Assembly: GCA_013151865.1 (NCBI GenBank)
Contig: JAADHN010000025.1
Location: 1 to 43,057 of the forward strand
DNA length: 43,057 bases
Origin: Kiritimatiellota bacterium
Lineage (GTDB): Bacteria; Verrucomicrobiota; Lentisphaeria; Oligosphaerales; JAADHN01
Direction: 5' to 3'
The notes under the pieces were generated by a model. It was not told where the DNA came from. It searched no databases and saw nothing but the letters and a program-made list of their open reading frames with translations. The stretch's first letter is position 1. Each line of letters begins with the position of its first letter. The position numbers were made by a program, and so were the translations under genes. Shown piece after piece: positions 23,447 through 29,153 of the stretch.

Positions 23447-24721
23447 ATGAATACACGGTCGTTCTTCGTGGTAGATCCCATCGCCAGGCGGTGGCCTGCC
23501 CTCGCCAGGGTCATGGTTGGACGCATAACCGTCCTGGGCGTTCTTTTTATTGCGCTTGCAGCCTTGGGGCCGCGAGACGAAATCTCCTTCTACTCCTTCA
23601 TTTCTCTCGCTTTCGTCATTAACATCCCCTACGCACTCTGGCTGCGAAAGGAGCAAACCGCTCGACAGAGCACGCCGCTTCAGTTTCTGGTAGACACGCT
23701 TCTGGTGACGGGCCTTGTGCATTTTACCGGCGGCCTCCAGAGCGAATTGGTTTTGCTGTATCCGTTGGTGATCCTTTCAGCCGGACTGGTGGTCTCCGGC
23801 GAGTTTTCCATGAAGGTCACGGTCCTGTGCATCAGTCTTTACGCGACGTTGATCGTTCTCGAAATGCAAGGCTTGGTGCGGTATTACGGCCCGGGCCCTT
23901 TCCCGTACACGAACGGACAGCACGTGGTTCAGGCCTTGATGCTGCGGATTTTCGTGTTCACGTTTTTCACCGCGGCAAGCAGTTTCCTTTCCGACAGACT
24001 CGGGAGAGGCAGGGACGGAGTGGGACCGACCGGCATGGTTTCTTCGCTGATCTGCAACTTTATGGCCCCGATCGCACTGTGTGCAAACCGGCAGGGCAAG
24101 ATCCTTTTTGCGAACAAAGCCGCGGCGGATTTCATCGGCCATCCCTCCGATTTCATCAGGGGACGAGACATCGGCGACTTTATTGTTGACGCCCCGCCCG
24201 CCGCGGGAGCGAAACCTTTTGAGGCACGGATGTGTACGCTGACCTTTCAAAAAACCGACGGTATGGTCGTTCACATTCCGTGTTCTATCGTGATGGTCCC
24301 TGCGGAAGTGCTGGCGGAGCACGTCGACGACTTGAACCAATTCTCTCCCACAGATGCGCCCTTGCTCTTGATCGTGGGATGGCCGCCGGATGCCGGTGAA
24401 GGATTACCGGGACAGACGCGCCGAGAGAATGATCGAATGCCCGGTGAAATTCTTGCCGGGTACCGACATTCTCTGCTCAATGCCCTGAGTCCCGTCAAGA
24501 CCGCGGCAGGTGCTTTTTGCGAGGTACTCGAGCGTGTGGGAGCGGACAGCACGGCGTGGAGCCCCGAGGACCGTGAACTGTCGAAGGGACTCTTGGACGC
24601 GCTGTGCACCGGCACCGGCCGCTTGCACAAGAGAATCATGGAGCTGTTTCCCGTGCCGGAGCAAGAACCGCCGGCCAGAGAGAAAAACGAAGAGGCAACC
24701 GGTGCCGGGCCTACGGGCTGA
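23447..24721 (+). CDS. PilS-like six-TM PAS sensor protein lacking a kinase ATPase domain
   Basis: The protein has 424 residues. Six hydrophobic segments fill residues about 22-185 (ITVLGVLFIALAALG, FISLAFVINIPYALWL, FLVDTLLVTGLVHF, LLYPLVILSAGLVVSG, VTVLCISLYATLIVLEM and LRIFVFTFFTAASSFL), arranged as in PilS/NtrB-type kinases. A PAS domain follows (about 205-300: LCANRQGKILFANKAAADFIG). The last part resembles a dimerisation helix (GYRHSLLNALSPVKTAAG) but continues into a short charged tail, and no N, G1 or G2 ATPase box occurs. The frame closes at a normal stop with no second half in another frame, so it seems to be naturally short. It begins after GGAGGAGGG. It may act as a sensing partner of the downstream hybrid kinase. 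Its length is about 100 residues below PilS. Confidence 0.75.
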   Translation: MNTRSFFVVDPIARRWPALARVMVGRITVLGVLFIALAALGPRDEISFYSFISLAFVINIPYALWLRKEQTARQSTPLQFLVDTLLVTGLVHFTGGLQSELVLLYPLVILSAGLVVSGEFSMKVTVLCISLYATLIVLEMQGLVRYYGPGPFPYTNGQHVVQALMLRIFVFTFFTAASSFLSDRLGRGRDGVGPTGMVSSLICNFMAPIALCANRQGKILFANKAAADFIGHPSDFIRGRDIGDFIVDAPPAAGAKPFEARMCTLTFQKTDGMVVHIPCSIVMVPAEVLAEHVDDLNQFSPTDAPLLLIVGWPPDAGEGLPGQTRRENDRMPGEILAGYRHSLLNALSPVKTAAGAFCEVLERVGADSTAWSPEDRELSKGLLDALCTGTGRLHKRIMELFPVPEQEPPAREKNEEATGAGPTG

Positions 24722-24762: not shown

Positions 24763-25052
24763 CCTGCGTTGCCACGCACTTGAAACGAACCGGCCCCCCG
24801 GACCGGATCGTTCGAGCGCCGACTTTCCTGCGGGCAGAGAACGAGTACGGCGGTGAGAATGGGCGTTCGACTTTCAGCTTTCCGAACTGAAACTGCCGGG
24901 TTCGAGGGGGCATGTTCCGGGTATGGGGCCGGAGATCGCAGAGACCGAGGCCGACGTGGTCCATCTGCGGGCCCCACGAGGCCTTTTCGGGCGCCCTTTT
25001 TACCAGAACCCACCTGCGTCCGGACACTTGCACCGCCCGCTGGGGGGGCACG

Positions 25053-28034
25053 ATGATTCGCACCAGGAAAACCGTATTCTTCGTCTTCGCGGCGTTCATG
25101 GGGATCCTGATAATCGCCCTCTATGAAACGACGACCCTTCTCTGGTCGCAGAGGATGGTCGAGGCCGAAGCGAAGAACATGGAATGGCTCCGCCGGCACC
25201 TGACTTTATCCCTGGGGCTGGAAGTGACCCGGATTCGCCGTGCTTTGGCGCTCTTGGTTGCGAATCCGCAGAATCTGACCCGGCAATTCCTGCGTACTAT
25301 CGAAGTTGACTACGGCATGGTGGTCGAGCCCGCCGACACCGGCGCACGCGTCACGACCGTTGTGCAGTTGGGAGATGACCCGCCGGGCGCGACAAAGTCT
25401 CTGGCCCGGGAAGCGGTGGCCAAATTCGGGAAGCTCCCCGCCGCCAGCGGATCAAGCGTTTGCCGGTTTCTCAAAACCGATGACGGAAAACTCTTTCTGC
25501 TCGCCGCCGCCAAACTGCCGAGCAGCCCGGACCGATACGTGATCGTCGCCGAGCAGTGGGACATCGGGACCCTGGGACGTTTGGCCGGCAGACCGCTTTC
25601 CTCAGCGGTGTTCCAACTCAGCCATCGAAGGCGCGGACCGACCGGCGATTTCAAAGCGCCGCGGTTCATCGAAGATGCCGGTTTGCGGGTTGCGGACGAC
25701 TGCTACTCTTGGACGGTCCTGCTGCTGCTTCCGGACGCACCGACCGCCCTGAAGGCGGACGTCAGCTTCCGCAGTGCATTGGCTCTTTCCATCGACCGCG
25801 CCAAGATGTGGTCGGCGTTTCTGTTTCTCGCATTTGCCGCGTTGGCTCTGGTCGTGTTTACGGGGACGCTGGACCGCTGGGTTTTCAATCCCCTGCAGCG
25901 CCTCAGTGGCGCGGTCACGGCAATCTATTCCTCCGGCGATTTCGACCGCCGCCTCCCCGAGCCAGACAAGAGCGAATTGGCTCAGATATCTCGCGAGCTG
26001 AATACGCTGTTGGATACAATCTCCGAGTCGCGTGCCGCACTGATCGAGGGCGAAGTCAGATACCGGTCCCTGGTGGAAACGGCTGGAGACGGTATTTTGG
26101 TGGTTCAAAAAGGCCGGATCTGTTACGTAAACCCAGCCTTCTGCCGATTGGTCGGCGAGGACACGAGTCGGGTCTTCAGCAAACCCGCGCGGGATTACTT
26201 CGAGTTGCCCCGTGAAGCACTCCAGGAAGAGCAGGGCCTGAAATCGGCGCCCGAACGATTCATTTTGTACGAGGCTACGGTCAGGGCCGAAAAGTCGCAG
26301 CGGATCTCGGTCGAGATCAACCAGGGCACATTCAAGTTCAAGGACCAAGCCGCCTTCTTGCTTGTGGTGCGTGATCTTTCCATCCGGAAACAGCTCGAAA
26401 CGACACTCCGCATCGAACGAGAACGACTGCGTCTGATTATGGACTCCGTGTCTGAGAGTATCATCGCTGCCGACGCATCCGACCGGATCGTTTTCGTGAA
26501 CCCTGCCGCATGCCGATTCTTTTCCTTGGGACCCAACGAATTGATCGGACATTCGCTCCCAGACGTTTTCCGCGCGGTCCACGGTGACGATATCCCTGCC
26601 GAGTTCACGGGCACAATGAACGTGGCGCTCCGGACCGGTCGGCCCGTCGCTTTACGCCAAGTGCACATCTCCCCGAAGGGTGGAGAAAAACGTGTGGTTG
26701 ACGGCGCGCTGCTCCCCCTCAAGCGGGACGACGGCAGTGTGGCGGGTGCAATGGTGATTCTGCGTGATATTACAGAGGAACTATTCATCCAGAAACGGTT
26801 GCAGGATTTCGAGAAAATGGAGTCGCTGAATTACCTCGCCAGCGGCATTGCTCATGATTTCAACAACATCATTACAGCCATCGTCAACAACATCGGCCTG
26901 GCCATGCTCTGTGGAGGCAATACAGCCCAAGCCGTAGATCCTCTCAAGAAGGCGGAGGAGGCGTGCCAGCAGGGCCGACGCCTGGCCCGTCAACTCCTGG
27001 ATTTTCTGAAACAGCGCCCTTCCACCAGGGAGCGGTTGCGAATCGACAGGGTCGTCAGAGAGTGTGCGGACTACATCCTGCACGGTTCGAACGTTCAATA
27101 CCGGATATCGGTTGCCGGAGAAATCGAACCGGTGGAGGCAGACCTCGGCCGGATCAGTCAAGTCTTCAGCAACCTGATCATCAACGCCCGACAGGCAATG
27201 GGAGACGGGGGCCGACTGCTGTTGGAACTGACATGCATCGAATCGACCGACCCCACGGAAAACCAGACGATTCCGAAGCGGTTCGTTCGCGTCCGGGTGA
27301 CAGACTCCGGGCCCGGAATCCCGAACGACCGGCTGCCCCGAGTGTTCCAGCCGTATTTCACCACGAAGACAGACGGCACCGGGCTCGGCTTGGCCATTAC
27401 CAAATCCATTGTCGAGGAACACGGCGGCCGGATCCTGGTGGATTCCGAAGTCGGCCGGGGCACGACCTTCAGCGTCTTCCTGCCCGTTGCCGAGGCCAGC
27501 GGTAAGGAAGACGGCGCCGCGGGGGCGCCCCTCCCGCACCTTATGTCCGTACGGGGAAAGAAAGTCCTTTTTGTCGACGATAATCCCGCCATCGGCCAAG
27601 TGGTCACGCAAGTCCTCGAAGCCTTCGGATGCGATGTGGCATGGGCCGAGGACGCAGCCACTGCCTTGGGGCTGTTCCGAAGACGAAAGGACGAGGGCGC
27701 GCCGTTCGACGTGATTGTCACAGACCTGAACCTGGGGGGGGGAGTTCCGGCGCGGCCCTTGCCCGAGGGATCATCAAAGAGATGCCGAACATGCAGATTA
27801 TTGCCGCCAGCGGCGATCATACCCATCCAGTCATCAAAGACTACCGGAGTTTCGGCTTTGCCGGTGTTATCCTTAAACCGTTCACAGTTAATGAGTTCAT
27901 TGATATGTTACACCGGCTTTGAGCCGCCGCACTCCTTTCTTGCCGCCGCCATGGGGACGACATCGTTCGCACACATCCTCTCCACTGAGCGCGCCGAACG
28001 CTCCCGCGCCCCCAGGGCCCCTGGTGAAGAATGA
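25053..28034 (+). CDS. Hybrid sensor histidine kinase whose receiver domain is interrupted at a G9 tract
   Basis: From ATG 25053 there is a TM helix (MIRTRKTVFFVFAAFMGILI), an extracytoplasmic region (about 35-245), a second TM (about 250-272), a HAMP linker and two PAS domains (about 330-460 and 465-580). The H-box is GIAHDFNNIITAI with phosphoacceptor His601. The ATPase boxes are FSNLIINARQAMGD, DSGPGIPNDR, YFTTKTDGTGLGLAITKS. A receiver follows: LFVDDNPA (Asp842-Asp843) and VIVTDLNLGG (phosphoacceptor Asp891). At 27734-27742 nine Gs keep a frame that turns into low-complexity sequence and stops at 28034. One more G (or two fewer) restores ALARGIIKEMPNMQIIAASG and GVILKPFTVNEFI, with the receiver's Ser and Lys, ending at 27922. 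This is an assembly error, phase variation or slippage. No response regulator with an output domain is adjacent. Confidence 0.88.
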   Translation: MIRTRKTVFFVFAAFMGILIIALYETTTLLWSQRMVEAEAKNMEWLRRHLTLSLGLEVTRIRRALALLVANPQNLTRQFLRTIEVDYGMVVEPADTGARVTTVVQLGDDPPGATKSLAREAVAKFGKLPAASGSSVCRFLKTDDGKLFLLAAAKLPSSPDRYVIVAEQWDIGTLGRLAGRPLSSAVFQLSHRRRGPTGDFKAPRFIEDAGLRVADDCYSWTVLLLLPDAPTALKADVSFRSALALSIDRAKMWSAFLFLAFAALALVVFTGTLDRWVFNPLQRLSGAVTAIYSSGDFDRRLPEPDKSELAQISRELNTLLDTISESRAALIEGEVRYRSLVETAGDGILVVQKGRICYVNPAFCRLVGEDTSRVFSKPARDYFELPREALQEEQGLKSAPERFILYEATVRAEKSQRISVEINQGTFKFKDQAAFLLVVRDLSIRKQLETTLRIERERLRLIMDSVSESIIAADASDRIVFVNPAACRFFSLGPNELIGHSLPDVFRAVHGDDIPAEFTGTMNVALRTGRPVALRQVHISPKGGEKRVVDGALLPLKRDDGSVAGAMVILRDITEELFIQKRLQDFEKMESLNYLASGIAHDFNNIITAIVNNIGLAMLCGGNTAQAVDPLKKAEEACQQGRRLARQLLDFLKQRPSTRERLRIDRVVRECADYILHGSNVQYRISVAGEIEPVEADLGRISQVFSNLIINARQAMGDGGRLLLELTCIESTDPTENQTIPKRFVRVRVTDSGPGIPNDRLPRVFQPYFTTKTDGTGLGLAITKSIVEEHGGRILVDSEVGRGTTFSVFLPVAEASGKEDGAAGAPLPHLMSVRGKKVLFVDDNPAIGQVVTQVLEAFGCDVAWAEDAATALGLFRRRKDEGAPFDVIVTDLNLGGGVPARPLPEGSSKRCRTCRLLPPAAIIPIQSSKTTGVSALPVLSLNRSQLMSSLICYTGFEPPHSFLAAAMGTTSFAHILSTERAERSRAPRAPGEE

Positions 28035-28049
28035 GACGGGAGACGAGCC

Positions 28050-29153
28050 ATGATGCAACGCGAACGCCTGTTGACTGCGCTTCGGGGCGGAACGCCGGAT
28101 CAGGTCCCGGTCACCTGGGAGTTGGAGACGCGTGCCGCACACGCGTTCACCGGAAAGACAGGCTGGCGAGCGGTCTGTGACGCGCACCGAATGATCGGCT
28201 CGGCTATCTTCAATCTCCAAGGCGTGGGTCCGCACGTGACGTGCCGTCTGGGGCCCGGCTACGGCGAGACGTGCAAGGAGCGACGCCGGGAAGACGGCAC
28301 GACGGAACGGACCCACACGCTGATCACGCCGCGCGGCAGTCTGGTCGAACGCTGGCGCGTCGGGCACTTGCCGCACGACCCCATGCTCGGGGTCCGGATC
28401 GAACACTTCGTCAAGGCCCCCGCCGACTACGAGATCCTGGCCGACTTCGTTGCCGAACAGGCTCGAACCGCCGTCCCGGATACGAGCGTCAGCCGCGAAG
28501 CGCGCGAGTACGTCGGTCACGACGGTGTGGTCGGGTTCTGGATGGGCGAGGCCAATTACCTGCTCGGCGACGCCCGGTCCGCCGAGCGTTTCGTGCTGGA
28601 CCTGATCGACCGACCTGAAGTCATCCACCGCACCTTGGAAGCCGTCGACCGGCTGAAGGAGAAGGAGTTGGCTGCGTTCAATGAATCGAACGCCGAGGTG
28701 CTCCTTCTCGACCTCTGCTGGGCCTCGACGAGCCTGCTTAACCCGGCGCTGGTACAGGAGTTCGTGCTGCCGCGCGTACGCCGTCTGATGGAAAACATCC
28801 GCCGGGACAGGATCGTGGGCTTCTTCACCACGGGCAGAATCCGTGCCGTGCTCGACCAACTTGTCGACTTGCGGCCGGACTTCATCCAGCATTTCGACGT
28901 GCTCGGGGATTGCGACCTTGCCGAAGTCAAAAGGACTTACGGCGACCGGATTTGCATCATGGGCAATTACAACCCGGTCGTATTGGCACACGGAACACTC
29001 GAACAAGCACGAATCGAGGCCCGGCGCTGTCTGGACGCCGCCATGGCCGGAGGCGGCTACATTCTGACCACCTCCGACGAAGTCCCCGCCGACGCCGGAC
29101 TCGACAACATGAAAGCCGTGGTCGAGTATGTGGCCGAGCACGGGCGATACTGA
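28050..29153 (+). CDS. Uroporphyrinogen decarboxylase (URO-D)-family protein
   Basis: The protein has 367 residues and an alpha/beta barrel of the URO-D/methyltransferase superfamily. It starts MMQRERLLTALRGGTPDQVPVTWE, the usual opening (a Arg/Glu-rich helix, then GxxPDxxP). The family blocks GFWMGEANYLLGD, VLLLDLCWASTSLLNP and FIQHFDVLGDCDLAEVKRTYG are followed by CIMGNYNPVVLAHGT and GGGYILTTSDEVPADAG. Hem-type activity is unlikely: such paralogues in PVC genomes often sit in catabolic loci and resemble MtaA/MtbA-type methyltransferases. No corrinoid protein or methanol-type partner is nearby. The start follows GGGAGACGAG and is 16 bases after the as-read stop of the hybrid kinase, so the two genes are probably co-transcribed. 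Confidence 0.88.
   Translation: MMQRERLLTALRGGTPDQVPVTWELETRAAHAFTGKTGWRAVCDAHRMIGSAIFNLQGVGPHVTCRLGPGYGETCKERRREDGTTERTHTLITPRGSLVERWRVGHLPHDPMLGVRIEHFVKAPADYEILADFVAEQARTAVPDTSVSREAREYVGHDGVVGFWMGEANYLLGDARSAERFVLDLIDRPEVIHRTLEAVDRLKEKELAAFNESNAEVLLLDLCWASTSLLNPALVQEFVLPRVRRLMENIRRDRIVGFFTTGRIRAVLDQLVDLRPDFIQHFDVLGDCDLAEVKRTYGDRICIMGNYNPVVLAHGTLEQARIEARRCLDAAMAGGGYILTTSDEVPADAGLDNMKAVVEYVAEHGRY

Follow-up and report, generated by a model that had tools for sequence, protein, structure and literature searches.

Probable one-base under-count of a nine-G tract in the receiver-coding part of a hybrid histidine kinase gene

The hybrid histidine kinase gene of the window (the whole analysed stretch of DNA, 43,057 nucleotides) contains exactly nine G at positions 27734-27742 (+), directly 3' of the receiver Asp codon, where the receiver is divided between two reading frames. 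The recorded G9 tract is probably one base too short (a probability of roughly 0.7), most likely because the sequencing, or the assembly of the consensus, under-counted a long G/C homopolymer. This reading gave the best fit because two unrelated genes are also broken at long G/C runs, with the same sign and each one base short, and because the breaks depend steeply on the run length; an assembly error, which an earlier note on this DNA had listed last among its options, has thereby become the best-supported of them. The frame break is an ordinary finding. In the living cell the gene would probably encode a complete receiver of the DLT(I/V)PGGMGG type at its C-terminus, and the missing G would have been lost from the assembly only, with the base retained by the organism.

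Kinase gene and the frame break

The open frame as read spans 24912..28034 (+), the last 97 codons of which are out of the receiver frame; the likely kinase start is the ATG at 25053 (+). A HAMP domain was identified at 25875..26024 (+; Pfam PF00672, residues 322-371, E 4e-7), followed by a PAS domain at 26421..26780 (+; PF08448/PF00989) and a second PAS domain with a weaker Pfam match at about 26058-26180 (+). The HisKA dimerisation/phosphoacceptor domain at 26829..27011 (+; PF00512) had an E value of 5e-5, slightly below the gathering score, and contains the motif GIAHDFNN, whereas HATPase_c at 27144..27491 (+; PF02518) was matched with an E value of 2.8e-25. Both domains that define the kinase part of a hybrid kinase, HisKA and HATPase_c, were thus found by Pfam and by the motif. 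Judged from its domains, the gene is predicted to encode an ordinary membrane-bound hybrid histidine kinase with the order TM - HAMP - PAS - PAS - HisKA - HATPase - receiver.

The first half of the receiver, including the Asp, lies in the kinase frame at 27564..27740 (+) and corresponds to positions 1-54 of the Response_reg model (PF00072), while positions 55-110, with the ASG and LKP motifs and the stop codon, were matched in the other frame at 27743..27922 (+). The E values of the two halves were 5e-7 and 7.7e-5, respectively, and a complete receiver in a single frame is not encoded by the recorded sequence. The receiver Asp is residue 938 counted from the ATG at 24912 and residue 891 counted from the ATG at 25053, the latter being the Asp891 of the earlier note. 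Across the tract the kinase frame reads VTDLNLGGGVPAR and ends at the stop at 28034; the alternative frame reads GGGSSGAALARGIIKEMPNMQIIAASGDHTHPVIKDYRSFGFAGVILKPFTVNEFIDMLHRL after the tract, comprising 62 residues with the stop at 27920-27922. The earlier description, according to which the G9 tract splits the receiver and the frame as read loses the receiver Ser and Lys, was confirmed by the exact count, by the two Pfam halves and by the location of ASG and LKP in the other frame.

Past the tract, the codon model favoured the shifted frame (score +7) over the frame as read (-31), and the 97-residue tail of the latter had no Pfam match. Considering the split of Response_reg at the tract and these codon scores, the frame break is therefore beyond chance. 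A second lesion was absent downstream and both receiver halves were well conserved. The absence of a further lesion implies that the break is either an artefact or very recent.

Two features were observed 5' of the kinase domains. A G7 run at 25042-25048 (+) is located four bases 5' of the probable kinase ATG at 25053, and it may affect initiation or may point to a misplaced start. The adjoining upstream gene at 23447-24721 (+) codes for a PilS-like membrane domain, a PAS domain and a short HisKA-like helix (GYRHSLLNALSPVKTAAGAF) without an ATPase domain; the product is probably a degenerate sensor beside the hybrid kinase.

Tract length compared with related kinases

The nearest relatives of the kinase were outside the genus and the family of the organism, and a scan of the named genomes for a close relative resulted in a single distant Bacteroidetes kinase only. 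In total, 44 related kinase loci were collected and 35 of them were readable across the receiver. The receiver was in a single unbroken frame in all 35. The same-phylum hybrid kinases with C-terminal GG-type receivers (L010-L017, L102-L123) share the HisKA-HATPase-receiver order and the DLT(I/V)PGGMGG loop, and are 35-42% identical to the kinase under study over the kinase core and the first receiver half. Unlike it, the readable ones have an unbroken receiver without a long G run.

The distances from Asp to SG and from Asp to Lys were determined as 29 and 51 residues, respectively, in 27 related receivers, 26 of which have the loop DLT(I/V)PGGMGG or a near-identical one. The corresponding values for the canonical receivers of more distant matches were 28 and 49-51. 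The downstream half in the window has the GG-type stretch YxxxGF..LKP(F/Y), and the 29/51 spacing requires three glycines ahead of SSG, i.e. the tract extended by one base. The tract is thus one base below the length predicted from the 27 receivers. As the window fits both family spacings only with the additional base, the tract appears to be one base short rather than two long. The earlier note had proposed that either one extra G or two fewer would restore the receiver; the former agrees with the 29/51 spacing, whereas the latter was rejected since it gives the generic 28/50 and departs from the nearest, GG-type relatives.

The longest G/C run at this site among the scored relatives was 7, and most runs were 3-4. 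With no scored relative above 7, the tract is therefore not a conserved slippage site.

Long G/C runs and sister breaks in the genome

The genome is a 176-contig draft of 6.2 Mb with about 63% GC and 97% completeness. About 74 G/C runs of at least 9 were counted genome-wide, where a second-order Markov model built on 400 kb of this genome predicts about 50 (3.4 per 400 kb); therefore, the G9 tract by itself is unremarkable. The survey covered the flanks of every G/C run of at least 9 and 400 kb elsewhere, and the frames on both sides were scored with a codon-periodic model. Piecewise scoring was adopted, as HMM segmentation was too insensitive for the 180-nt tail. The frame was kept at about 22 of the approximately 25 intragenic runs of at least 9, a count that is approximate given that the model is weak (about 0.24 bits per codon) and breaks near gene ends may escape. 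The frame was broken at three runs, located in the kinase under study, in a VWA-type gene on C135 (L076) and in lpxD on C94 (L062).

In contrast, the coding G/C runs of 6-8 were intact in 161 cases and broken in none (3/25 versus 0/161, Fisher p = 0.002). The three breaks agree in sign and size, each being one base short. Since long G/C runs slip in real replication too, the length dependence alone cannot separate an artefact from biology. The frame was preserved at about 22 of the 25 or so long tracts in coding sequence, which speaks against an artefact: the assembly is not generally poor at homopolymers. Further candidate breaks were rejected: L055 and L080 represent the end of one gene beside the start of another, and the A6 candidates in L032, L137 and L139 probably mark neighbouring genes whose ends adjoin or overlap. 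In the 400 kb of L125-L144, G/C runs of length 8 were about 2-fold more frequent than expected from the Markov model (22 versus 11), whereas those of length 9 were absent (0 versus about 2.8); these values, which are small numbers, are compatible with under-counted runs.

The break in lpxD, a core gene of the cell envelope (L062, G000:C94:2401-5409), is at a C9 tract at C94:3901-3909. Matches to the NCBIfam lpxD models covered positions 1-93 in one frame before the tract and positions 92-343 in another frame beyond it. In the genome profile search, the TIGR01853 segments 1-88 and 91-324 were 5 nt apart instead of the expected 6, so that the one-short estimate is a profile fit which assumes no indel in the linker. 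No other locus in the genome exceeded the family cut-off for lpxD, and lpxC and lpxB were present, open and intact. A truly broken lpxD is implausible because this is the sole recognisable copy and lpxC and lpxB are intact. The three concordant breaks together are as expected from consensus under-counting.

The VWA-type gene (L076, G000:C135:31436-34445) is broken at a G10 tract near C135:32936-32945. The gene is present in most genomes of the order and its halves share one open frame in many relatives (e.g. G022 C240, G008 C17, G004 C72, G001 C224), the coordinates of the halves overlapping by just the codon common to both query pieces. The abutting halves in the relatives indicate that the G10 of this organism is one base short. 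Conserved genes other than the kinase are thus broken at long homopolymers in the same assembly. Even without reads, a seeming phase-variable switch in a draft assembly can thus be tested by asking if other genes, a single-copy envelope gene among them, are broken by the same amount at homopolymers of equal length, as they were here. Contingency loci should not be read off draft consensus sequence.

The GeneTack authors attributed singleton frame transitions with intact relatives to sequencing errors or indels (PMC3711429). Similarly, the frame transition of the kinase is present in one genome, at a homopolymer, with the relatives intact. In the present case, unlike the GeneTack singletons, the error reading is backed by the sister cases in the same assembly and not by re-sequencing.

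Alternative readings and known homopolymer switches

A genuine one-base deletion, private to this organism and caused by replication slippage, is unlikely. The receiver would be truncated and non-folding while the kinase core would still work; spontaneous contraction of long G runs does occur, and the loss of the C-terminal receiver next to an intact kinase core would be easier to tolerate than most. However, the equal one-base losses in the single-copy lpxD and in the VWA-type gene would have to be real too, and the downstream half has not decayed. Programmed recoding, in which a -1 frameshift on ..GGG GGG GGA or transcriptional slippage would give some full-length product from the nine-G template, is highly improbable. 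A -1 shift does yield exactly the three-glycine loop, in direction and product matching the family spacing, and the slippery heptamer G_GGG_GGA is present in the kinase register, although it is inherent to any nine-G run so placed. Against recoding, the RNA 3' of the tract folded no better than shuffles (MFE z = +0.44, +0.92 and -0.23, without pseudoknots), an SD-like stimulator was not visible 5' of the tract, and no relative with the single-frame receiver (35/35 readable) has the tract. The region 27300-28300 had no Rfam match. Transcriptional slippage is moreover best documented for A/T tracts (PMC6260861).

A phase-variable poly-G switch, by which reversible slipped-strand mispairing would switch the kinase back and forth between a form that has a functional receiver and one that lacks it, is distinctly unlikely. 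The tract length falls in the known mutable range, conservation extends to both receiver halves, and the sensor kinases bvgS (PMC1891110) and flgS (PMC3930126) are known cases of phase variation at a homopolymer. The tract is, however, neither maintained in the relatives (at most 7 at the site) nor enriched in the genome, where runs of at least 9 are near chance and a set of contingency loci is not evident; in addition, lpxD and the VWA-type gene are not of the contingency type. The phase switch and the transcriptional slippage put forward in the earlier note thus gained no positive support. It is very unlikely that this uncultured bacterium has a poly-G slipped-strand switch that toggles the receiver only, so that one subpopulation would have it and another lack it, with the kinase core made in both.

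The known switches resemble the kinase under study only in part. In Bordetella pertussis, bvgS undergoes a C6/C7 phase change that renders BvgS non-functional, and both alleles have been seen (PMC1891110). The likeness is a one-base change in a G/C homopolymer within a hybrid sensor kinase gene; in the kinase under study, unlike bvgS, one allele was seen and the loss is limited to the C-terminal receiver. In Campylobacter jejuni, homopolymer-length switching was shown for flgR and was reversible in experiment, and flgS is also phase-variable (PMC3930126). These are likewise two-component genes with homopolymers involved, whereas the flgR tracts consist of A/T, unlike the G9, and the reversibility there is experimental.
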